Virus record (IMG/VR): IMGVR_UViG_3300023181_000007
Location: 1-55,720 of that record
Source: a virus
Reading direction: 5' to 3' (one strand)
DNA length: 55,720 nucleotides
The number at the start of each line of letters is the position of its first letter. The stretch's first letter is position 1. A program made the translations under genes and the position numbers. This document shows positions 3,998 to 53,604 of the stretch, piece by piece. The notes beneath the pieces are model-generated. The model did not search any database. It had not been told where the DNA came from and worked only from the letters and a program-made list of their open reading frames with translations.

Positions 3998-4026
3998 TAT
4001 AACAAAACAATTAAAAACATAAGATC

Positions 4027-4548
4027 GTGGAAAATCTAACATTTACACCGGAACAATTAGAAGAGGCGTTAACAGCAAATAAGTTTTGGCTTGACGGAAA
4101 CGATGAGGCGGCAAAAGTTGTGCATGAGGCTACCAAAGCCGGTTTTGTATTCAGGGGATCGCATACGCAAGCTCATTGGACTAAGGCGGGTATTGACTGG
4201 TATTATGCATCATTAAACAAGGTTGAATTTGAAGCCCAAGAGGACACTCAAATTTTATACGTTGCAAGCCTTGGCGGCGGTGTTAGTGGTCGTACAGTAA
4301 AGAAAGGTGAAAAGATCCGTTTCTTAGGTGTTACAAATGACTTGGGCCGTGAGAGTGTTAGCACTTACGAAACCTTACACAGAATTGATAAACACTATTT
4401 CTTTTCAGCGTTCAAGCAAGCCAGTCATACAATGCCGGCAAAAATTGCCTTTTTAAAACAGCATGCTAAAAACCTAAGAGAAAACGGCAACTTAAAAGAA
4501 GCCGACGAGGTTGACAATCACATTTACGACCTTGAGGCTTATAAATAA
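4027..4548 (+). CDS. Hypothetical protein, first gene of the island, GTG start in TCGTGG context
   Basis: This 173-residue soluble protein is not recognised. It starts with GTG inside ATCGTGGAA (4024-4032), preceded by AAAAACAT (4013-4020), the leader pattern shared by several first genes in this genome and complementary to the putative small RNA at 38.46 kb. The middle contains a glycine-rich turn (ASLGGGVSGRTVKKGEKIRF) and the C-terminus is helical. As the first gene behind an operator-like promoter it is probably an early or regulated gene. Confidence 0.8.
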   Translation: MENLTFTPEQLEEALTANKFWLDGNDEAAKVVHEATKAGFVFRGSHTQAHWTKAGIDWYYASLNKVEFEAQEDTQILYVASLGGGVSGRTVKKGEKIRFLGVTNDLGRESVSTYETLHRIDKHYFFSAFKQASHTMPAKIAFLKQHAKNLRENGNLKEADEVDNHIYDLEAYK

Positions 4549-12729: not shown

Positions 12730-12757
12730 TTTGTATAATAAAATATTATTATATTTG
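12730..12757 (+). promoter_or_regulatory. Promoter of the accessory cassette after portal
   Basis: TATATTTG (12750-12757) is a perfect -7 box. The -33 box is TTTG at 12730-12733 (16-base spacer) or TTG at 12726-12728 (21-base spacer). The spacer contains alternating AATAAAATATTATT, as at other promoters here. Confidence 0.75.
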
Positions 12758-12758
12758 T

Positions 12759-12790
12759 CCCTGTAATACAATATGTGTTGCAGGGATTTT
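12759..12790 (+). promoter_or_regulatory. Leader hairpin followed by T run (attenuator-like)
   Basis: CCCTGTAATAC (12759-12769) pairs with GTGTTGCAGGG (12775-12785) with two G-T pairs and a five-base loop, then ATTTTT. It begins two bases after the -7 box, so it would form at the extreme 5' end of the transcript. It could protect the RNA or cause early termination. Confidence 0.6.
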
Positions 12791-12810
12791 TAATTAAAAA
12801 ACGTGGAATA

Positions 12811-13032
12811 ATGACAAATTCAAACAAAGCAGACATTGCAAAGAGAAACCAAGAAACCGAAAGAGACATACAGTTTATGATAAAAGGTTTTAAAGATGAG
12901 GGTTATGATTCTGAAAAATTAAATACAGTTCTTTTTCATGCCAATAACTTTGAACAAAGAGGAGGATCTAATGCAAACAGAAGAATGATACAGGCAGCAA
13001 AAAGGCTGTTGAGTACTCCTGAAATATTTTAA
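12811..13032 (+). CDS. Hypothetical small protein
   Basis: The 73-residue product starts MTNSNKADIAKRNQETERD. The in-frame ATG at 12775 is rejected because it lies in the leader hairpin. The real ATG is preceded by CGTGGAATA, a variant of the motif found around GTG starts elsewhere in the genome. The protein is charged and helical. Function unknown. Confidence 0.65.
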   Translation: MTNSNKADIAKRNQETERDIQFMIKGFKDEGYDSEKLNTVLFHANNFEQRGGSNANRRMIQAAKRLLSTPEIF

Positions 13033-13049
13033 TTAAAAACATTATTGTC

Positions 13050-13289
13050 GTGGAAAACAATTGGAAAAACTTCAATCAAAGAGCAATAGTAAACATGCAA
13101 ACTATTGTAAATGTTCATGAGCATAGAACAAATAGAATTTGTCCGTATGTAATAGAGAAAGAAACCCTATTACATTACAGCGATACAAAAATTACAATGT
13201 TCGATTATCATTTTGAACATGAGACGTATTTATTTTCAACTGACAACAAAAACATTGGGTTTGTTGCAAGTGTATTTTGCTTAAACTAA
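13050..13289 (+). CDS. Hypothetical protein, GTG start in TCGTGGAA context
   Basis: This 79-residue protein starts with GTG inside TCGTGGAA (13048-13055), with AAAAACAT at 13035-13042. It contains several His and Cys residues, but no known motif. Function unknown. Confidence 0.65.
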   Translation: MENNWKNFNQRAIVNMQTIVNVHEHRTNRICPYVIEKETLLHYSDTKITMFDYHFEHETYLFSTDNKNIGFVASVFCLN

Positions 13290-13317
13290 TTTATAAATCA
13301 ATAAAACTTTATTTATC

Positions 13318-14103
13318 GTGGAAACTACAAAAAAAACTATCACAGTACTTTTAATGATGATCTCATTAACTTCATTTTCTCAAACAAATTTTAATTACGG
13401 GATGGGTTCAATTGTCTCTCAAGTCATAAGCCCAACTATAGATGTAAATAGTGAGCAAACTAGTCTTTACGGAGGAAAAGGATTGGCAGCTTTTTACATA
13501 AACAAACCAATAACAACGCGTCATGATTCTTTTACCTTAGGAGGCGGTTATAAATATAGCGACGATGGTAATTTTAGCAATCCTGAATTATACGTAAGTC
13601 GTTGCGGTGCTAATGATGATCGTTTTAGAATGGCCTTAATATTTGGAATGTATAGAATAACCGGAGACAATCAGCAAACCGCAAGGGGTACAACTTATTT
13701 ATCGAGGCGCGCAAGTTATGCCGGGGCTGCTTTGTCTTATCACTTTGAAAACAATAATTACTTTGGCGTTAAAGTTGGAGACGTTTATGATGTGGCATAC
13801 ACCGACGGGAGTGACAGCGTTTATTATTTATTTGAAGCTATGACTCCAACAGCTTTCACAAACTTCAATGTTTTTGATAATGGGTTTGAAAAAGTATCTA
13901 TATACGCTCAAGCCTCTTATAATGCTGTTGAGAAAACAAAATACACCGCCGCCGTAAACTTTGAAAATGAGAGGTTGGTTTTAGGAGCTTGGGCCGACGT
14001 TAATATTGGAGCACGTGCCAAATACAAAACCGATTGGCTAGATGTTCAAGTTACTTATGAAAAAGGTTTCTTTGTTGGATTGATAATAAAAGATATACCG
14101 TAA
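13318..14103 (+). CDS. Secreted beta-barrel-like outer membrane protein
   Basis: This 261-residue protein has a Sec signal peptide (TITVLLMMISLTSFSQ, cut near residue 22) and a mature part made of alternating amphipathic beta strands with many aromatic girdle residues, such as SFTLGGGYKYS, ASYAGAALSYHFE and KVSIYAQASYNAV. This is the look of a small outer-membrane barrel, though no C-terminal aromatic residue closes it. The GTG start lies in TTATCGTGGAA (13313-13323). In a cassette between head genes with its own promoter it behaves like a moron gene that alters the host surface; receptor masking is one possibility. Confidence 0.65.
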   Translation: METTKKTITVLLMMISLTSFSQTNFNYGMGSIVSQVISPTIDVNSEQTSLYGGKGLAAFYINKPITTRHDSFTLGGGYKYSDDGNFSNPELYVSRCGANDDRFRMALIFGMYRITGDNQQTARGTTYLSRRASYAGAALSYHFENNNYFGVKVGDVYDVAYTDGSDSVYYLFEAMTPTAFTNFNVFDNGFEKVSIYAQASYNAVEKTKYTAAVNFENERLVLGAWADVNIGARAKYKTDWLDVQVTYEKGFFVGLIIKDIP

Positions 14104-19523: not shown

Positions 19524-20444
19524 ATGAGAAATTTAGATCACAACTTTATGACGCCTTTTTTATGCATGGCAATCATAAATGAGCTTTGCGGCTCCGACAC
19601 CTCAAAGCCTAAAAATACCGGGTTTTCAGGTAAACAATGTTTGGAGGGGCTAATGGAAAAGGTAGCGGTTGCCCGTGATGGGTTTTCGTTCGATTCATTA
19701 GCTGATTTCAAGGATAAAGATAAATGGCTTGAGGCAATTGCTAACAAAGATATTGTTCCATTGTTCGACGCTTACGTTGTTACTCCTGCTAACACAGATG
19801 CAACACAGTACACCGTTGGAAACTTCTCTTTTGAAACTGCATCGGCTGTTAAGATCACTACTTTCGAGAGTTATCTTGGTTTTTGTTCCCACGCGGCACT
19901 TAAATCGTATGCTAATTCTGAATATACACAGGTTTTCGAGTTCAACAATGATGGTTCGATTCTTGGAGTAGGTAACGAGGACGGAAGCGTAAAAGGCCAA
20001 GACCTTAAAGACTTAAACGTTGGAATCAGGACCATTGCAACGAGCGACAAACCGGCAACAACTTTGGTAAGATTAACTTACAAAGATTATAACCAACTTG
20101 AGGACAACGCGGTTGTAATAAAACCATCTTGGAGCCCGGCAGACATTGACGGTATATTTGATGTTGAATTAGAGTTTGTTAGTGCAACAGCTACAACAAT
20201 CAAATTTAAAGCTACAAGAGAGTGCGGTCATGCTCCTGTATTAGTTCTAACAACAGCCGATGTTGTTGTGAAAAATGCCTCCGGAGTAGTTCAAACAACT
20301 AGTTTTGTAGGTGCTGACGCTAACGGAGTTTATACTTTAACCGGTACTGCATTTGCTACAGGTTACACAGTAGAAATTGACGGAGTTGTTACGGTTGTTG
20401 ATACACTTTATGAGGGTGTTGAGCCAATGCCAATAACAGTTTAA
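19524..20444 (+). CDS. Putative major tail tube protein with C-terminal beta domain
   Basis: This 306-residue protein has a first part of about 175 residues compatible with a tail tube subunit. A C-terminal beta-rich extension (about residues 180-306) includes two Ig-like strand patterns (VVVKNASGVVQTTSF and GYTVEIDGVVTVVD). Tail tube proteins with added Ig-like domains are common in siphoviruses. It is followed by a terminator, which would set it apart as a highly expressed gene. Confidence 0.65.
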   Translation: MRNLDHNFMTPFLCMAIINELCGSDTSKPKNTGFSGKQCLEGLMEKVAVARDGFSFDSLADFKDKDKWLEAIANKDIVPLFDAYVVTPANTDATQYTVGNFSFETASAVKITTFESYLGFCSHAALKSYANSEYTQVFEFNNDGSILGVGNEDGSVKGQDLKDLNVGIRTIATSDKPATTLVRLTYKDYNQLEDNAVVIKPSWSPADIDGIFDVELEFVSATATTIKFKATRECGHAPVLVLTTADVVVKNASGVVQTTSFVGADANGVYTLTGTAFATGYTVEIDGVVTVVDTLYEGVEPMPITV

Positions 20445-21782: not shown

Positions 21783-24700
21783 ATGGCAGGAAAGGACGGA
21801 ATAATTACGTTAAAGGACATCATTACAAATGATGCTCTTAGTTTTGGTGACATATACGCCAAAAACGTTGAGACAGCTATAAAAGCCAATGAAAAACTTA
21901 AACAATCCGCCAAAGGATTGAGTGAGGTTATGGATTTATATAGGTCGTCAGATACAAATTATAAATTAATAGAAACAAAAAATAAAGAAAAAACAGCTAT
22001 CGACTCCATTACTCAAGCCTTGCGGGATGAAGTACTAGCCATAAAAGAAATAACTCAAGCAAGGCAAGAACAACTTGCGGTTGAAAAAGCTCTTGACGCT
22101 GTAAATTCAGCAAGAAAAAAAACAAAGAGTAATGATTACGCCAAGGCTCTTGAGGAGGAGGCTCTAAATCACAAAAAAATAACTAACGCGATAAAAGAAC
22201 AAGAGTTGTCCGAAAAGGCTCTTGAGAAAGTAAAACAGGAAAAAAATAAGACTCAAAAACAAGAGGAGGCCGCTATTAAACGCAATACGGTGCTCACAGA
22301 AGAGGAAAAAATACAAAACCAACTATTACGTAAGGAAAAGGCATTGCAAGCCCGTGAGAACCTTGGATTGGTTGGTGCCTATGAAAAATTAAACAGAGAG
22401 AGAACCAAGGCGCAAAGAGTTCTTGCCGACTTATTGGCAGCAGAGGAAAAGGACACCCGCGCTATTATTAAGGCGCAAAGAGAATACGATGTTTTAAACT
22501 CAAGGGTGCAATCAGTTGACAAAGCCGTTGATATATTTTCTAAAAATATAGGTAATTACGGGAGCGCGTTTGGTGGTTTTGGTGATCTGCTTCAAACATT
22601 AACCGCCGCCTTTGGAGTTGCAACGGGAATACAACTATTTTCCGATGCTGTAACCAAGGCTAAAGATATATTAATAAACTACGAAAAAGAGGTTGTTAAT
22701 TTGGCGGCTATTGCCGGGCATACAAGAGAAGAGATTAAACCGCTTGAGGACACTATTCAAGATGTTGCGGCCGCAAGTATTAACAGCGCAACAGATGTAG
22801 CGAAATTGGCAACGGAGTTAATTAAATTAGGTTCAACCCCGGAAGAGGCCGCAAAGCTTCTAAAGCCTGTAAATGATTTATCATTAGCGTTGCAAGCGTC
22901 GGCGGAGGATGCCGCAACACTTGTAAAATCTTTACTTAATGCTTACGGAGAGGGTGCCGATCAAGCCGCAAGATATACAGATGTGTTAGCAGAAAGCGCA
23001 AACCGTTCGGCTTTGGATTTCCAAGGCTTAAGGGATGCATTCAGTTATTTAGCACCAACAGCAAAAACATTAGGTTTCTCTTTAGAAAAAACAGCCGCAT
23101 TGCTTGGGGTTCTTGCTGATAACGGTATTAAGGCGGAAAGTGCCGGGCGTTTAACTTCAACAGCCTTGGCAAGACTTGCCGGGAACGGCCTAACTCTTGA
23201 GGATGCTTTAGATAAGATAAATAAAGTACAAAGAGAATCTAACGATGAGCTGAAAGTTGCAGCAGTTGCCGCCGACTTATTCGGTGCGGAGGCTTTAAAG
23301 GTTGGTATTATATTAGCCAACAACAGAGAAAAGATAGACGAAAATACAATAGCTTATCAAAACTCAAGGGGTGCATTAGAAGAGCTTACCAACAAACAGC
23401 TTAAAAGCCTTGACGCTCAATTAGAAATCTTAGATAGTTCTTTTGAGGATTATATTATAAAGCTAAATGAAAGTACAGGCTTTACAGATTCATTTACAAA
23501 GGTTGTTAAGTTCCTAGCTTCAAACCTTGATACAATTATTGATGTAGCTTTTCAAGCAGTTGCGGCGTTTGTGGTTTATAAAACTGTAATGTTAGCATCG
23601 TCAGCAGCTACAAAAATACAAACAGCCTCTATTTATGCTCAAATACTTGCACAGGCTTTAATGACTAACGGGATAAAAGGATTGAGGGCGGAATTAACGG
23701 CTTTATCAGCTACAACAAAATTAAATCCTTATGCTTTAATTATAACGGCAACCATTGGTTTGATTTATTATTTAACCACGTTACAAAAGTCATTGGCACA
23801 AACAACAGCCGAAACCAAAAAAAATACCGATGCTTTTTTAAAAAATAGGGATATTCAGGAAAACAACATTGATCAAACCGAAAAACTTGCAGATAGATAC
23901 GATGAGTTAAGCGGAAAAGTCAACCTTACAACGAAAGAGCAAACAGAACTTGCAGAGATTACAAAGGTTTTAGGTAAGTTGGTACCGGATGCAACTACTA
24001 ATATAAATAAGTATGGAGAGGCTTTGGTTATTAGTTCCGATAAAATAAGGGAGTATGTTAAGTTACAAAAAGAAGTTCTTGCGCTAAAGACAGATGTTGA
24101 GCTTGATAAAAATGTTAAATTGCTTTCAAAACTACAAAGTGAGCAAGGCCGTTTTAATCAAGCGGTTGACTCAAGCAAGAGCACACAGGCATTTTTGGAA
24201 TCCTTGGGCAATAGCTACAAAACCATAAACGGCCGCTTAAGTGTTAGGAATGATTTATTAGGTACCTATAGCGAGTTATCCAAAGAAGAGCTATTATTAT
24301 TTAAACAGGCGGCGCTTAAAAATGAGACCGAAATAGCACAAACAGAAAACAGGATTAAGGCGTTAAAAAGGCTTCAAGATCAAGCGCAAGCAACTAATAA
24401 AGCAACGACCGGGAGCGCAACCCCTGACGCTACAGGAAAAGGCAGGACTATAGAGGTTATTGATGCCGAAATAAAAGCGGAGGAGGATAGGATAGATTCT
24501 CTTACTTACGTTACTAGGGCGGAGGGCCAATTAATAGATAAGCGTGTTGCAGCCCTTAAAAAGGAGAGAGAGGCAATTTATAGCACCTCAAAGGCTCAAA
24601 AAGACGCTAAAAAAATAAGGGAGGATTATCTAGCAAATCTTAAAAAGACCGATGAGGATGCGTTCAATTTAGCGGTGTTTAGGCTAAACAGAATAAAAGA

Positions 24701-26192: not shown

Positions 26193-28478
26193 ATGGGACA
26201 AATTAGCCCGGCATACGACGATAGAGTACGTTATACACTAATGTACAAACCATACGGAACCGAAGTAATTGACGACCCGATTGGTTGGGAAAATGACGAT
26301 AAAGAAATTGCCCGCAATGAGGATTATGACGGCATTATTACAAACTTTTCTAACGGATTAACCTTTGTTGGTTCAGGTGCCCAATATATACTTGCTGTTG
26401 ATGAGATTTATGGCGTTAATGCAAACATTAGATTGGTTAAGGAGGTAAGAAACCCTAAAACCGATCTATGGGAAAGGGCTTACTTTGGTTATTTAGATTT
26501 ATCTACAATGGAGGAGGAAAACAAGCAAGTTAAAATTAAATTCAACTCCGGAGGAATAGAGCAAATATTAAAAGCCCGTGAAAGTGAAAGCGTTGAGATT
26601 GACAGATTGACCACTATGGACGGCAAGCCAATAGATCCTATCCGTGTAGATATGGTATATTTAGAGGGTAGGGAGATTTTATTAAATACTTCTTACAATA
26701 TAAAAGAATCAGCTAACACCGCAACTGTAACCTTGGACAGTAAAGGCAATATTAGGCAAGAAACGGTTGGCGTTCCGTTGGCAGTAATTAGCCAAAGCCA
26801 TGAGGAGGCGCAAAGCGTTCTTGCTGAAACCAACGCTAATGAGGTTAACGGTACAAACGGGATAATGTTTTTTGCAGATAACGAAAGTGAAAGAGTGCTT
26901 AACATCACATTAGACTTATCTTTTGTAACAAACATTACCCGGATGGATGATACAACACAATCGCGTTATGCTTTATGTTTAACAAAATACACTAACGGCA
27001 TTGATTATGTGAGGAGCACCGTTATAGAGTTATTTAACACAGATACAAACGGCATTGATGCTTTGGGAGGTGATCATTGGAGAAATCCGTTTACAGGAAT
27101 AAATGAGAATCCTAAAACCTCGCATTCTGTATCATGGGGAGGCCAAATACATCTTTTAGAGGGTGAAAGTTTAGCCCTTGAGTTTATAGCAAAAAGTAAG
27201 TTAGGAGGAGATTTTAGTGTTGGGCATCTTGATATTGTTGCGGAAAGCATAACCGGAGGGCTTAAAATAATAGACAATAGTTATTATCCATCAAGCCAAT
27301 CAAAGTGCGTTTTAGCTTTTGAACTTGCAAACAAGCTTATAGAGATAATGACAGGAAGCGACACGGCGTTTTATAGCGAGTTTTTAGGCCGTACCGATAT
27401 TGGATATACAAAAGACGGAAAAGGCTCTTTAAATGGCTTTACTCATGGTTTTTGGGTGAGGGGTTTTGATTCACTCCCGGAAAGTACCGAAACGAATATA
27501 AATTCATTCAAACCCTTAACAACCTCATGGAAAGATTTTATGACCTCTATGGAGGCTATTTGGAACGTTGGTTTAGGTATTGAAACCGTCGGATATACTG
27601 ACCGTATTGTTTTAGAGGATAAAACATATTTTTGGCAACGTCAGGTAACAGTAAGATTGCCTAACCAAATAACCAAAAACAAAAATAGTGTTGCTACTAA
27701 ATATTACTATTCAGGTTTAGAGTTTGGATATGCCAAGGGCGGAGAGTATGAGGAGGCTATGGGATTGGATGAGTACAATGGAAAATCAACTTTCACAACA
27801 GTAATAACACGACTTAAAAATACTTTCTCTCAACTTTCGTTGTATCGTGCTGATAGTTTCGGTAAAGAATTTGCAAGGCGTAAACCCCGCATAAAATACC
27901 CAACCGAGGACTCCCAATATGATAATGATATTTTCATAATGGATATGAAGAGAACCGGCACCGATTCCGGGCAACCAATCGGAGAGGGTCCCGCGCCTGT
28001 ATTTTTAGAAAGAAAATGGCAAGATGATTTTGCAGAGGCACCAACCGGAACATATAGCCCGAATACTGCAACTAACTTAAGACTATCACCTGTAAACAAC
28101 TTATTAAGACACGGTTGGTTTATTGCGGCGGGATTTACAAAATACCTATCGGATTATGTTAGGTACGGAAGCTCAACAGCTAACAGCAGTTTAAAAACTA
28201 GGCTAATCGGAGGTAATGAACATGCTGAAAACGGTAATATTATCAACAAAGAGTTGGGAAATGCTAGGTTTATACCTCAATTCAAAGAGTTTGAGCATGA
28301 AGTTACTCCGGAAATAATGGCACAAATAGAGGGATTCACGGTTATAAATGGCCGTAAAGTTCCTAATGTTTACGGGCTATTTGAATTTAGAGACGAAAAC
28401 AATGATATAAGGCTTGGTTATTTAATAAATTTGAAGCCTAACGAAAACAAGTTCAAATTACTAACAGCTAATAGATAA
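26193..28478 (+). CDS. Putative distal tail or baseplate protein
   Basis: This 761-residue protein directly follows the tape measure gene. It is rich in beta structure and starts with VRYTLMYKPYGTEVIDDPIG. Position and size fit a distal tail or baseplate hub protein. No enzyme motif is evident. Confidence 0.6.
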   Translation: MGQISPAYDDRVRYTLMYKPYGTEVIDDPIGWENDDKEIARNEDYDGIITNFSNGLTFVGSGAQYILAVDEIYGVNANIRLVKEVRNPKTDLWERAYFGYLDLSTMEEENKQVKIKFNSGGIEQILKARESESVEIDRLTTMDGKPIDPIRVDMVYLEGREILLNTSYNIKESANTATVTLDSKGNIRQETVGVPLAVISQSHEEAQSVLAETNANEVNGTNGIMFFADNESERVLNITLDLSFVTNITRMDDTTQSRYALCLTKYTNGIDYVRSTVIELFNTDTNGIDALGGDHWRNPFTGINENPKTSHSVSWGGQIHLLEGESLALEFIAKSKLGGDFSVGHLDIVAESITGGLKIIDNSYYPSSQSKCVLAFELANKLIEIMTGSDTAFYSEFLGRTDIGYTKDGKGSLNGFTHGFWVRGFDSLPESTETNINSFKPLTTSWKDFMTSMEAIWNVGLGIETVGYTDRIVLEDKTYFWQRQVTVRLPNQITKNKNSVATKYYYSGLEFGYAKGGEYEEAMGLDEYNGKSTFTTVITRLKNTFSQLSLYRADSFGKEFARRKPRIKYPTEDSQYDNDIFIMDMKRTGTDSGQPIGEGPAPVFLERKWQDDFAEAPTGTYSPNTATNLRLSPVNNLLRHGWFIAAGFTKYLSDYVRYGSSTANSSLKTRLIGGNEHAENGNIINKELGNARFIPQFKEFEHEVTPEIMAQIEGFTVINGRKVPNVYGLFEFRDENNDIRLGYLINLKPNENKFKLLTANR

Positions 28479-31900: not shown

Positions 31901-34510
31901 ATGAAAAAATCAATCTTAATTTTATTTATTCTTTTGTGCAACTTGATGAGTGCACAAACAGAAATTGGAACATTGAAATTAACCGGCAATCCTTTAACGG
32001 TAAATGACACAACAAAAGTTGATATACTAGTTAGGGACAAAACCGCAACTTCAACAAAGGGTATAGTTAGAAAAATAACTTGGCCTTATTTTTCTACAAT
32101 AATAAACAGCACGGTTGCCGGCAATATCAAAACTGTTGGCGGGCAATCTTTAATTGGAGTTGGAAATGTTACAGAGATTCAAAACTCTTTGGCAGCATCA
32201 ACAATATTAGGGCCAAGCGCAACGGCTGTTAATACAGGTCTTGCAACTAAACAAGCAACACTTGTATCGGGCACTAATATTAAAACAATAGAAACTCAAA
32301 CGCTTTTAGGTTCCGGGAATATTGACTTGGTTAAGACGGATGTAGGATTATCAAATGTTGATAATACAAGTGATGCAAACAAACCCGTTTCAACGGCGCA
32401 ACAAACGGCTATTGATGCAAAAGTTGAAAACAATTTAACGGCATCAACAACGGTTGCGCCAAGTAAAACAGCAGTAAATACAGCTTTAGCAGGAAAGCAA
32501 AATACTTTGGTAAGTGGAACTAATATAAAAACCGTTGGAGGCAACTCATTATTGGGTAGTGGTGATGTTCCGTTTCCAACTCCTGCATCACAGGTGCAAA
32601 ACTCTTTATCCCCGGCATCAACTACATTAGCCCCAAGTGTTGACGCCGCAAATGCAGGATTAGCATTAAAGGCTAATGACAATGCAGTTATTCACACAAC
32701 AGGCAATGAATCAAGAACGGGGACTTTAAATAATACAGGAACTGTTACTATATCGGATGGGTCAGGGGGTACAAGCCTTAAATTAGAAAGAGGTACAGGA
32801 GGCGTATATTTTGCTAACTTACTAAATGATGATGGTTTGCTGTTAAATAATAAAGCAAATACAATAAGATACCAAACATGGTTTAATAATGGAAATACAA
32901 TTATAGGAGGTACAACAGCTAATATTGATAATAATTATAAATTTGAAGTAAGAGGAACTACAAGGCTATTGAGAACGGGTGTAGATGGTGGGGGCTTAGC
33001 CGGAAGTGCCACAATAGCCTCAGATGCGAAAACAATAAATGATGGTGTTGCCATTGATTTTCAAGCATTAAACAGCAGTAGTAATACTGCAACTTATGGT
33101 CTTATATATTCAATTTTAGAAGGTGTTACGGCAGGCTCTCATTCAGGTAGTTTAAACTTTAGAACTATAAATGCTAACACTAATGTTTTAGCTCTTAAAT
33201 TAACAAAAGAGGGTAGGGCTATAATAGGAAACGGAACAGACAACGGAGAAATATTACAAGTAACAGGAAAAGCAACGGTTTCAAGTGCGCCAACCAATAG
33301 TACAGATGTAGCAAGACTCTTGGAACTTAATGGAAAAGCTAACACAAATGGTTCTAATGCTTCGGGTACGTGGTCTAATATAGTTGCCGGAAATAGTAAT
33401 GGTTTAGGAGGCTATCAATATGTAGATGCTCTTACAAATAACATTAGTACGTTCTTAGTTAGAGAAGCGGGAAATATAAATTGGAAAGTGGCTAGCCCTA
33501 CTGCGGTTATTAATGCTTTAGGGATAAATACAAAATCAGAAATAGCAAGCACCTTAACTGTAAATAATACTGATATACCTACTGGAAGCGATTTAAATAC
33601 ATATACTACAACAGGATTATATTTTTGTCAAACAAATGCAATAGCAGGAGCAGGAACAAACTTTCCGGTTGCAAATGCAGGAAAATTAGAAGTTGTCACA
33701 CGTAATGGTGATACTAATACTATTTATCAAACTTATCATACATATCAAGCTGTTAATACAGTATATACGCGCGCAAGATTTGGGGGTACATGGAGTACTT
33801 GGGCATTACTTACAAATGATGCAACTTTAACAACAGGATTAAACAATAAACTTACTATTGGAGGTGACGCAAAGGGTACGACTGTTAGTGTGGGTACAAC
33901 AGATGCTCAAACATTCCAAGTAATAGCAGGGGGCGCAACTAAGGCACAATTTGCATCCGGAACAACAACATTTTTTGGAGCAACTGCAATAATAAATGGA
34001 AGTCTTATTTTAACGCCCGGTCAAGTTATTGGAACGCCGCCGGGAACAGGAACACAAATATTAATAGCAGCAAGCGGAAGCCCTACAGTTTATCGATCAG
34101 CTACAGTCACAACAGTTGGGCATTCTTTTACAGGAGGGACAACGGATATAGTAAATTTTGGCAATCCAGTAGTTGCAGGCATTAGAGTAGATGGGCGTGC
34201 TTATGGTACAAACGGAAGTGTTGCCGCCGATTTTGCTACAGTAGGTCAATTACCAATTATATACACGGCAACCGCAACATTAGACTTTCCAAGTACGTCA
34301 GCAAACAACTCAAGTGAATTAACAATAAGCGTTTCAGGAGCCGCAATTGGTAATGTAGTAACTGTTGGTCCTCCTGCAACAGAATTAGCGGGGGTATGCT
34401 TTACAGGGAGAGTTACAGCCGCCGGAGTTGTAACGCTAAAATGCAATAATTATAGCGCAAGCGTTAAAGATCCGGCATCGGGTTCATATACCGTAAAAGT
34501 GATGCCTTAA
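31901..34510 (+). CDS. Tail fibre protein with signal-peptide-like N-terminus, tandem repeats and knob domain
   Basis: This 869-residue protein begins with a perfect-looking Sec signal peptide (MKKSILILFILLCNLMSAQ), very unusual for a virion protein; the next in-frame ATG after residue 16 is far downstream. Residues about 74-260 carry three tandem repeats with SGTNIKTVGGNSLLGSGDV-like units, common in fibre shafts. Residues about 561-636 match the phage fibre knob pattern (SDLNTYTTTGLYF ... RARFGGTWSTWALL). The C-terminus is beta-rich. It probably recognises the host surface. Confidence 0.75.
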   Translation: MKKSILILFILLCNLMSAQTEIGTLKLTGNPLTVNDTTKVDILVRDKTATSTKGIVRKITWPYFSTIINSTVAGNIKTVGGQSLIGVGNVTEIQNSLAASTILGPSATAVNTGLATKQATLVSGTNIKTIETQTLLGSGNIDLVKTDVGLSNVDNTSDANKPVSTAQQTAIDAKVENNLTASTTVAPSKTAVNTALAGKQNTLVSGTNIKTVGGNSLLGSGDVPFPTPASQVQNSLSPASTTLAPSVDAANAGLALKANDNAVIHTTGNESRTGTLNNTGTVTISDGSGGTSLKLERGTGGVYFANLLNDDGLLLNNKANTIRYQTWFNNGNTIIGGTTANIDNNYKFEVRGTTRLLRTGVDGGGLAGSATIASDAKTINDGVAIDFQALNSSSNTATYGLIYSILEGVTAGSHSGSLNFRTINANTNVLALKLTKEGRAIIGNGTDNGEILQVTGKATVSSAPTNSTDVARLLELNGKANTNGSNASGTWSNIVAGNSNGLGGYQYVDALTNNISTFLVREAGNINWKVASPTAVINALGINTKSEIASTLTVNNTDIPTGSDLNTYTTTGLYFCQTNAIAGAGTNFPVANAGKLEVVTRNGDTNTIYQTYHTYQAVNTVYTRARFGGTWSTWALLTNDATLTTGLNNKLTIGGDAKGTTVSVGTTDAQTFQVIAGGATKAQFASGTTTFFGATAIINGSLILTPGQVIGTPPGTGTQILIAASGSPTVYRSATVTTVGHSFTGGTTDIVNFGNPVVAGIRVDGRAYGTNGSVAADFATVGQLPIIYTATATLDFPSTSANNSSELTISVSGAAIGNVVTVGPPATELAGVCFTGRVTAAGVVTLKCNNYSASVKDPASGSYTVKVMP

Positions 34511-37546: not shown

Positions 37547-37606
37547 ATAATATTTATATATTTGTATAATTACTTTTGTGGAATTACTTTATTTCATTGC
37601 TGCCTA

Positions 37607-37637
37607 AAACCGCCGATCATCCCCCGGCGGTTTTTTT
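37607..37637 (+). terminator. Intrinsic terminator after the endolysin gene
   Basis: AAACCGCCG (37607-37615) pairs with CGGCGGTTT (37625-37633), followed by a T run. About 30 bases upstream, TACTTTTG (37571-37578) is followed by GTGGAATTAC, so a short transcript could end here. Confidence 0.85.
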
Positions 37638-37640
37638 ATA

Positions 37641-38298: not shown

Positions 38299-38419
38299 AA
38301 TATTTGATTTAAGAGGTTTTCCTTAAAAAGCCATATATAGATATACTTTTAATTGATATAATCAAACACCGACTTTTAAAACAATAAAATATAATTATAA
38401 GACACTCATTAAAGTAATA

Positions 38420-38452
38420 TTTGGATAGTAAAATATAAATGATATATATTTG
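38420..38452 (+). promoter_or_regulatory. Promoter of the putative small RNA
   Basis: TTTG (38420-38423), a 21-base spacer and TATATTTG (38445-38452) match the Bacteroidota consensus well. Transcription should start at about 38457. Confidence 0.75.
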
Positions 38453-38456
38453 CAAT

Positions 38457-38526
38457 GTTATTCCACGATAACAAGCAAAAAGCAAAATATGTTTTTAAAC
38501 CGGTCTACTCAAAGGCCGGTTTTTTT
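38457..38526 (+). ncRNA. Putative trans-acting small RNA with start-codon antisense loop
   Basis: The unit has its own promoter and terminator and no reading frame. The 5' end folds as GTTAT (38457-38461), loop TCCACG, ATAAC (38468-38472). TTCCACGATA (38461-38470) is the exact complement of TATCGTGGAA, which contains the GTG start of several phage genes. ATGTTTTT (38489-38496) is the complement of AAAAACAT, found just upstream of most of those starts. The 3' end is the terminator AAACCGG (38497-38503) with CCGGTTT (38516-38522). The length is about 70 bases. That it is transcribed and regulates in trans is inference. Confidence 0.55.
38497..38526 (+). terminator. Intrinsic terminator of the putative small RNA
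   Basis: AAACCGG (38497-38503) pairs with CCGGTTT (38516-38522) and a run of seven T (38520-38526) follows. Confidence 0.85.
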
Positions 38527-38550
38527 ATTTATTAAAATAATATAAAAATA

Positions 38551-38582
38551 TTGTTTCAAGTAATAAATAATTATTACATTTG
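38551..38582 (+). promoter_or_regulatory. Promoter of the replication operon
   Basis: TTG (38551-38553), a 21-base spacer and TACATTTG (38575-38582) fit the Bacteroidota consensus. The GTG start at 38605 lies 22 bases downstream. Confidence 0.7.
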
Positions 38583-38604
38583 TCAAAACATAAAACCTTA
38601 AGTC

Positions 38605-38796
38605 GTGGAAAACTCAAGTAAATCTTATCCTATAATCATAGAAATATCTAAGAACAAAAAACCGTTCAAAGTAGATATTAAAGACCCTAATTTTTATAAT
38701 CCTATTAGCTGCTTAAATAAACAATATGAGGAGCCGGTTAAAAAGGTTTATAAAAAAATTGATTATTCCCCTTTTGAAATTATAAGCCCGAATTAA
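38605..38796 (+). CDS. Hypothetical small protein, GTG start in TCGTGGAA context
   Basis: This 63-residue protein starts with GTG in TCGTGGAA (38603-38610), with AAAACAT at 38585-38591. It is basic and has no membrane segment. It is the first gene of the replication operon, next to the putative small RNA gene. Confidence 0.65.
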   Translation: MENSSKSYPIIIEISKNKKPFKVDIKDPNFYNPISCLNKQYEEPVKKVYKKIDYSPFEIISPN

Positions 38797-43685: not shown

Positions 43686-43713
43686 CTACAGTAAAAACAT
43701 AAACATTTATATC

Positions 43714-44049
43714 GTGGAAAATATAAAATCAATGTTATTGCAAAATCTGCAAGACATAAATCAACTAGCTGACCCTCACAAATCAGATGAACATATTGCC
43801 CTTACATCAACTTATTTTGATGAATCAACTCAAGATAACTATGAGCTAATAGTTGAGTTAATAGCTTATAAAAGCGAAAGAGAAGAGCCGGGAACTTATC
43901 ACAGCGATAGAGGCGACGTTGAGGGGCATGGCTTTTATAATGTAATTACTTCAATAGAGATTCAACAAATTTATATATTCATGAATTTTGAGGATGAACC
44001 ACAATTCAAAATAACCAACCAAGAAGCTGTTGAGGCTATAAAATTTTAA
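43714..44049 (+). CDS. Hypothetical protein, GTG start in TATCGTGGAA context
   Basis: The 111-residue product starts MENIKSMLLQNLQDINQ from a GTG in TATCGTGGAA (43710-43719), with AAAAACAT at 43693-43700. An in-frame ATG at 43657 lies in the promoter and is rejected. The protein is acidic and of alpha/beta character. Function unknown. Confidence 0.7.
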   Translation: MENIKSMLLQNLQDINQLADPHKSDEHIALTSTYFDESTQDNYELIVELIAYKSEREEPGTYHSDRGDVEGHGFYNVITSIEIQQIYIFMNFEDEPQFKITNQEAVEAIKF

Positions 44050-47204: not shown

Positions 47205-47235
47205 ACGTGTGGAATAATAACAAAAACATTGTATC

Positions 47236-47529
47236 GTGGAAAATACAAAAACAATCTCAACACGTTCAGGTGCGTTAAAATCTGATGATCAATTAAGGGC
47301 TTATATAAACAAAAACTTTATTATTCGTTGGCGAATGAAAGGAGATAAAAAAAGTAATCTTATTTCCGCCGGTAAATTTGTAAAGTTATTGCAGGACAAA
47401 ACAAGCATGGTCACAATTACCCCGGAGGAAACAAAACAAAAATACTTTGATAAAGTGATTAACGGTCGAAAGTATCGTTATGACTTTTTGATAATGGGTA
47501 TTTTACAAGTTCAATTTATATCTAAATAA
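47236..47529 (+). CDS. Hypothetical protein, GTG start in TATCGTGGAA context
   Basis: This 97-residue basic protein starts from a GTG in TATCGTGGAA (47232-47241), with AAAAACAT at 47222-47229. It has no membrane segment. Function unknown; it is the first gene of a promoter-driven unit. Confidence 0.7.
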   Translation: MENTKTISTRSGALKSDDQLRAYINKNFIIRWRMKGDKKSNLISAGKFVKLLQDKTSMVTITPEETKQKYFDKVINGRKYRYDFLIMGILQVQFISK

Positions 47530-52369: not shown

Positions 52370-52395
52370 ATGAGTGGAATAACAAAATACAAAAC

Positions 52396-53068: not shown

Positions 53069-53284
53069 ATGGATAAATACACCCTAAATGATGTTAAACT
53101 AGACATCGAAATTGTAAAGAGGTCGATTGCTGACCCTGATAAGGCTCATTGTATAGAGGATCAAATAATGTACAGGTTTATAGAGTGTTTATCTATTGGC
53201 ATGTATGAAATTGATGAGGCTATAGAGATTGCAGCCTTAATTAAAGAATGCAACGAGTTACAATTCCCAAGGTACACATCTTAA
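53069..53284 (+). CDS. Hypothetical protein
   Basis: This 71-residue acidic helical protein with two cysteines is not recognised. Confidence 0.6.
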   Translation: MDKYTLNDVKLDIEIVKRSIADPDKAHCIEDQIMYRFIECLSIGMYEIDEAIEIAALIKECNELQFPRYTS

Positions 53285-53298
53285 AAAACATTTTTATC

Positions 53299-53604
53299 GT
53301 GGAAAATAAAAATCACAAAAGACCAATGAAAGTATTATATCAAATACTTTTAGAAACGGCTAAAGAAAAAGGATTTGGAGAGAATGGAATTTGTCAACTC
53401 ATAGGTAGGCTTCTCATAAAAAAACATTTTAATACCTATGAAGCTAATGCATTAATTTGTGATATTGACAATAACAAACCTGAAAGCTATAATCCTCATA
53501 ATGGTTATTTTTTCCCGGTTGGTAAAAATTACGAATTGAAAAGAATCAAATTAATAGAACAACGTTTAAACTTTTACAGCAATGAGCCAACCGCATTCAC
53601 CTGA
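53299..53604 (+). CDS. Hypothetical protein, GTG start in TTATCGTGGAA context
   Basis: The 101-residue product starts MENKNHKRPMKVLYQI from a GTG in TTATCGTGGAA (53294-53304), with AAAAACAT at 53284-53291. An upstream in-frame ATG at 53248 lies in the previous gene and is rejected; ATG at 53326 is another possibility. It overlaps the next gene by 23 bases. Function unknown. Confidence 0.6.
   Translation: MENKNHKRPMKVLYQILLETAKEKGFGENGICQLIGRLLIKKHFNTYEANALICDIDNNKPESYNPHNGYFFPVGKNYELKRIKLIEQRLNFYSNEPTAFT

Follow-up and report, generated by a model that had tools for sequence, protein, structure and literature searches.

The closest known counterparts of the locus described here are other regulators encoded by phages. 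The RegA protein of phage T4 resembles it in that a single phage regulator acts on the initiation regions of many of the phage's own mRNAs, overlapping the start codon (PMC3014915). The c4 RNA of P1/P7 and the sar RNA of P22 are phage RNAs that pair near the ribosome binding site and block translation, c4 being thought to expose its complementary sequences in loops (PMC12197685). VpdS of phage VP882, which affects phage and host mRNAs, and PreS of lambda share with it the property of being phage-encoded trans-acting sRNAs, and the OOP RNA of lambda that of being a small phage RNA pairing with a phage mRNA (PMC12197685). The phage sRNAs covered by that review target one phage gene, or host or mixed mRNAs. 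In Bacteroidota the mRNAs have no Shine-Dalgarno sequences; what governs initiation is mRNA structure together with particular bases, for instance an A at -3 (PMC6847099).

The DNA analysed here (the window) is the virus record IMGVR_UViG_3300023181_000007 in its full length of 55,720 bases. Protein matches to terminase, portal, major head, tape measure, endolysin, Sak4-like protein, exonuclease and DnaC-like loader identified it as a tailed phage, and TAnnTTTG promoters together with relatives among Flavobacterium phages pointed to a Bacteroidota host. As judged from the sequence, this phage quite probably encodes a trans-acting sRNA that covers the short leaders and start codons of a regulon of small genes and represses their translation.

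Results

Structure of the sRNA gene

The sRNA gene is intergenic, located between the lysis genes and the recombination/replication genes. It is on the same strand as its targets; all genes used in the analysis are on the + strand. Its predicted promoter (38420..38452), with TTTG at 38420-38423 and the TATATTTG box at 38445-38452, is of the Bacteroidota sigma-A type. In F. psychrophilum this box was mapped at -12 to -5 (PMC9723704). The same placement gives 38457 as the predicted +1, thus the predicted RNA begins exactly at the first base of a hairpin. The promoter is followed by GTTATTCCACGATAAC and then by a strong terminator. The RNA predicted from promoter and terminator (38457..38528) is about 70-72 nt long and comprises the 5' hairpin GUUAU-UCCACG-AUAAC (38457..38472), whose loop is retained in relatives while the stem arms vary, and the stem of an intrinsic terminator followed by a T run (38497..38522). 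The promoter, the hairpin and the terminated RNA of about 70 bases were all part of the original prediction; at the level of the sequence all three were confirmed by the present analysis, and the case is now stronger than the original prediction could make it.

Two segments of the RNA can pair with mRNAs. Site 1, UUCCACGAUAA (38461..38471), is the complement of TTATCGTGGAA at start codons; within it TTCCACGATA (38461-38470) is the complement of TATCGTGGAA. Site 2, AUGUUUUU (38489..38496), is the complement of AAAAACAT in leaders. No Rfam family matched the sRNA at gathering score, and no description of it was found in the open-access literature.

A further promoter-terminator RNA was noticed in the window at 37557-37640, between the endolysin and Rz-like genes, and its GTGGAATTAC is a near-complement of the sRNA. 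In G051 and G052, two related phages described below, a promoter-terminator RNA was likewise seen some 900 bases upstream of the sRNA.

Target sites

Exact copies of TATCGTGGAA were found at 13314, 43710, 47232 and 53295, in agreement with the claim that the complement of the loop region contains the GTG starts at 13318, 43714, 47236 and 53299. The partial matches claimed for the starts at 4027, 13050 and 38605 were also present, with one mismatch at 4023, one at 13046 (a G-U pair) and two at 38601. Gene starts were those called in this analysis, with orthologs as a check where possible. Site 1 and site 2 sequences are combined at gene 4027-4548 (AAAAACAT and GATCGTGGAA, 4013..4032, identified by motif match and pairing energy rank), and, identified by motif and pairing, at genes 13050-13289 (AAAAACAT and TGTCGTGGAA with one G-U pair, 13035..13055), 43714-44049 (AAAAACAT and TATCGTGGAA, 43693..43719), 47236-47529 (the same pair, 47222..47241) and 53299-53604 (the same pair, 53284..53304). 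Gene 43714 has orthologs in G051, G052 and phage Fpv5, gene 47236 in G051 and G052. Gene 13318-14103 matches by motif and pairing through TATCGTGGAA (13314..13323). Gene 38605-38796, directly downstream of the sRNA and with its own promoter box at 38575, pairs through AGTCGTGGAA (38601..38610), and GTGGAA is kept by its G051 and G052 orthologs. AAAAACAT, originally placed before six starts, precedes five of them; the sixth, 38605, has AAAACAT, which lies partly before the predicted +1. The sites thus extend from 4023 to 53304, apart from the sRNA at 38457, and the sRNA is not transcribed opposite its targets as a cis-encoded antisense RNA of the OOP or aQ type would be.

GTGGAA forms the first bases of seven of the eight GTG-started genes in the window, and the whole minus strand contains it once, namely in the sRNA. 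Four more non-coding sense copies were found, at 12803, 37578, 47209 and 52374. Those at 12803, 47209 and 52374, overlooked in the original prediction, have the form GTGGAATAA(C), here called class B; their pairing partner is the hairpin's 5' half. They are CGTGGAATAAT (12802..12812), where GTG GAA TAA overlaps the ATG of gene 12811-13032, GTGGAATAATA (47209..47219) in the 47236 mRNA, and GTGGAATAACA (52374..52384) in the 52396 mRNA. In the latter two the first base of the motif coincides with the predicted 5' end of the mRNA. At 52374 an 11 bp helix with the hairpin's 5' half was predicted, and the first ten bases of the 52396 mRNA (from its predicted 5' end) and of the sRNA are perfect complements. 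The target set is therefore likely to be larger than originally proposed, with 12811 and 52396 also targets.

Two features near these sites deserve separate mention. Minigenes of two or three codons overlap the ATG of the next gene at 12803 (GTG GAA TAA) and in Fpv5 (L382:27105, GTG GAA ATA TGA), which suggests translational coupling. A promoter box immediately followed by a terminator-like hairpin (TCCCTGTAA..TTGCAGGGATTTTT type) stands before a GTGGAA site in four phages (window 12750-12800, L080:5744, G052:4664, G051:14419); this conserved element is possibly an attenuator.

Chance controls and pairing energies

With at most one mismatch, site 1 gave nine matches against 2.9 expected, a number reached in one of 100 shuffles. 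AAAAACAT alone was weak (22 occurrences, 13.3 expected). CGTGGA, the exact complement of the sRNA loop UCCACG, was the most over-represented hexamer of the leaders (-60..+9), occurring in ten against 0.18 expected. Pairing with the seven starts was better than that of all 2000 dinucleotide shuffles (z -6.2), a comparison that is partly circular because these targets had been picked by motif. In a ranking of 90 starts by cofolding, made independently of the motif, the seven GTGGAA targets and 52396 occupied ranks 1-8, with energies of -10.4 to -13.8, the ninth start having -7.7; the mean was -11.9 for the targets and -2.7 for the remaining starts. The interaction scores thus passed the comparison with shuffled controls that had been proposed as a check.

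Under unconstrained cofolding the two helices formed simultaneously in examples from five phages (the window, G051, G052, G054 and Fpv5); at 47236 of the window they were not found together. In a cofolding matrix that combined sRNAs and targets across phages, the cognate sRNA was best in four of five rows, for the window marginally; the Fpv5 targets favoured the G051 RNA. The Fpv5 start at 26642, which lacks the motif, scored as well as the targets.

Counterparts in related phages

Searching with the start motif behind a promoter alone retrieved G051 (57 kb), G052/G053 (56 and 32 kb) and G054 (5 kb). Fpv5, a cultured Flavobacterium psychrophilum phage (L382, NC_031921.1), was reached through the DnaC-like protein, and L362 through a two-part pattern that includes TTCCAC. 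Counterparts of the sRNA in three uncultured lineages and in Fpv5, all of them unannotated, were therefore found without using the sRNA sequence. G051, G052/G053 and G054 have a promoter, a 5' region bearing UUCCAC and a terminator, immediately followed by a small gene whose start reads CGTGGAAA. Fpv5 has an unannotated predicted counterpart at 19900-19962. All three near-complete phages (G051, G052, Fpv5) carry the complementary RNA at the syntenic position, as do the fragments G053, G054 and L362; relatives with the leaders and no such RNA, which would have spoken against the prediction, were not encountered among the near-complete phages.

In six phages the RNA has its own promoter and intrinsic terminator and needs no reading frame. 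The hairpin is at or beside the predicted +1 in five of the six; folding gave no stable 5' hairpin for G051. UUCCAC is the sole invariant block among the counterparts, and the stem arms differ. TTCCAC was found near the 5' end in none of 51 promoter-terminator candidates from relatives that lack the start motif. CGTGGA ranked first or within the top six hexamers after promoters in G051 and G052. Fpv5 has few targets. The gene adjacent to the sRNA is present in 29 records of cultured F. psychrophilum phages; the Fpv5 ortholog of gene 38605 is an unannotated 53-aa gene at 20040. Fpv5 gp25 is annotated from 24256, upstream of its likely promoter, and ortholog alignment favours a GTG start at 24349.

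Covariation of the sRNA and its targets

Nearly all orthologous targets retain the GTGGAA start at 26-47% protein identity. GTG GAA was kept at 38605 in three phages, at 43714 in four and at 47236 in three; only the 38605 ortholog of Fpv5 departs from this, with GTG AAA. Site 1 covaries with the starts. In G052 GAUAAC is replaced by GGUAAC, with a TTACCGTGGAA start at 34083; the G051 RNA has AUUUUCCACAA and its targets TTGTGGAAAAT (43558) and GTGGAAAATTA (14467); in G054 UUUUUCCACGA of the RNA faces TCGTGGAAAAA.

At site 2 the pair AUGUUUUU/AAAAACAT of the window is replaced in G052 by AAAAUUUUACUGUUU/AAACAGTAAAATTTT, a compensatory change. In the window the match had a helix-length p=0.011. 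The strongest site 2 covariation was seen in G052 (p<0.001 over all six), where two leaders with AACAGTAAAATTT meet an RNA complement of 13-15 nt and a third one of 11 nt; CAGTAA is the top hexamer after G052 promoters. Fpv5 has 11-nt matches (AAAAACTTTTT, TAAAAAACTTT). Site 2 alone was not significant in G051, G054 and L362, three of the five phages tested. The second pairing segment of the original prediction thus holds as far as the compensatory change between the window and G052 goes, and lacks individual significance in those three phages. Taken together, complementarity to initiation regions exceeds chance and is maintained by compensatory change.

Other searches

An exact-hairpin search of viral contigs gave two matches, judged to be chance, and the patterns AAACAT..TATCGTGGAAA and promoter..TTCCACGATAA gave chance matches only. 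Relatives identified by Sak4-like protein or terminase were mostly too distant for comparison; of those tested, L080 alone carries the motif at a gene start preceded by a promoter, and this 8-kb contig ends short of the sRNA site. TCGTGGAAAA of L269 was rejected as a target, the gene probably starting at an upstream ATG. A search with the 38605 protein gave no match. In 395 sampled genomes of the phylum the two-part pattern had three matches, no more than the reversed control, and no chromosomal sign of the system was seen. No such RNA was found in the examined part of the Flavobacterium phage lotta8-1 genome.

A second conserved small RNA was observed in Sak4-linked phage loci (L006:6706, L008:9046, L011:4065, L012:3089, L013:4471, L023:3762, L027:6282, L074:2941). 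It has a promoter, a hairpin whose loop is GUGA(U) (TGTTGTGATAACA) and, in the majority of copies, a terminator. As no target motif was seen, it was rejected as a homologue of the sRNA; its L023 copy had no match in Rfam.

Discussion

Promoter, hairpin, terminator, complementarity, cross-phage covariation and synteny can all be read from the sequences, and base-pairing of the sRNA with the target leaders is well supported by them. From these features we infer expression of the sRNA, its pairing in the cell, its repressive effect and its timing in infection. The RNA would be transcribed from its own promoter with the 5' hairpin at the predicted +1. Its loop CCAC, flanked by U and G, would open pairing with the GTG start codon and the following GAA, from where the helix could grow to 9-12 bp, while the downstream segment would pair with the A-rich leader just upstream of the start. 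Most leaders in the window that have a promoter of their own measure only 18-27 nt. The duplex would therefore occupy the larger part of the leader together with the start codon and keep the 30S subunit from initiating. In this way one RNA would lower the expression of at least eight small phage genes together, most of them of unknown function; it is because such a duplex should stop initiation that we infer coordinated repression of translation. The simplest suggestion for its purpose, by analogy with T4 RegA, is the shut-off of early or accessory genes.

Two extensions of this model, considered jointly, are rather unlikely. As the loop UUCCAC is common to the phages while stems and second sites differ, the sRNA might also silence the same genes in superinfecting relatives, the phage family competing through a start-codon code readable by RNA. 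The 5'-terminal GUGGAAUAAC mRNAs, whose 5' end would pair with the 5' end of the sRNA, might represent a second mode of action on mRNA ends or minigenes.

The same pairing could instead activate or stabilize the mRNAs, or the mRNAs could act as sponges and thereby regulate the sRNA. Two mRNAs (47209, 52374) could be protected or opened by a helix at their extreme 5' end, and the predicted short RNA at 37569 likewise contains GTGGAATTAC, but at most sites the start codon itself is covered, and pairing there normally blocks initiation; this possibility appears quite unlikely. It is very unlikely that TATCGTGGAA is bound at gene starts by an RNA-binding protein of the phage, or read by the ribosome as a strong initiation context, with the sRNA incidental or a decoy for that protein. 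The motif is indeed locked to the start codon, and an A at -3, which TATC provides, promotes initiation in Flavobacterium (PMC6847099). However, the loop and linker of the sRNA change along with the targets, and for class B leaders the pairing partner is the opposite half of the hairpin. Moreover, a decoy for a protein recognizing the sense RNA would need a copy of the motif, whereas the sRNA holds its complement.

If a phage repressor bound TATCGTGGAA as DNA, both at the targets and in reverse orientation within the sRNA gene, this would account for the inverted copy there being flanked by dyad symmetry. Such an operator should keep a constant relation to the promoter, independent of start codon and strand. 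The sense copies share one orientation in register with the start codon, the distance to the promoter box varies, and a box is absent from the 120 nt around 13318 and 53299. A fixed loop in changing stems and a covarying second site fit an RNA, and we regard the DNA operator as scarcely credible. That the resemblance is accidental would be conceivable for a prediction selected from a survey of many features, with AAAAACAT alone only mildly enriched; that several diverged lineages, found without the sRNA, show it again at the corresponding position and with compensatory changes makes chance extremely improbable. It is this comparison across phages that, at the level of sequence, is decisive for reading the locus as a base-pairing sRNA.

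In the described systems the regulator or its target range is different. For c4 and sar one phage target each (ant) has been described (PMC12197685), whereas the present sRNA has at least eight matching targets, nearly all of them located away from its own gene. VpdS and PreS are described as Hfq-binding, the target of PreS is the host gene dnaN, and a start-codon site common to a phage regulon is not described for them in the same review (PMC12197685). OOP is antisense to the single gene cII (PMC12197685), whereas the present sRNA and its targets lie on the same strand, without antisense overlap. RegA, a protein, has sites in about 30 mRNAs that are loosely defined (PMC3014915); its counterpart here, compared by mode of action only, is an RNA with an explicit complementary site at the start codon. 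The sRNA points to a simple means by which start codons could be targeted in Bacteroidota, where mRNAs are devoid of Shine-Dalgarno sequences (PMC6847099), and the start motif would mark genes of unknown function that are controlled as one set. Its presence in cultured F. psychrophilum phages makes the model directly testable. If it is true, a phage regulon set by one start-codon sequence and one complementary RNA, coevolving in diverged phages, would be the RNA counterpart of RegA.
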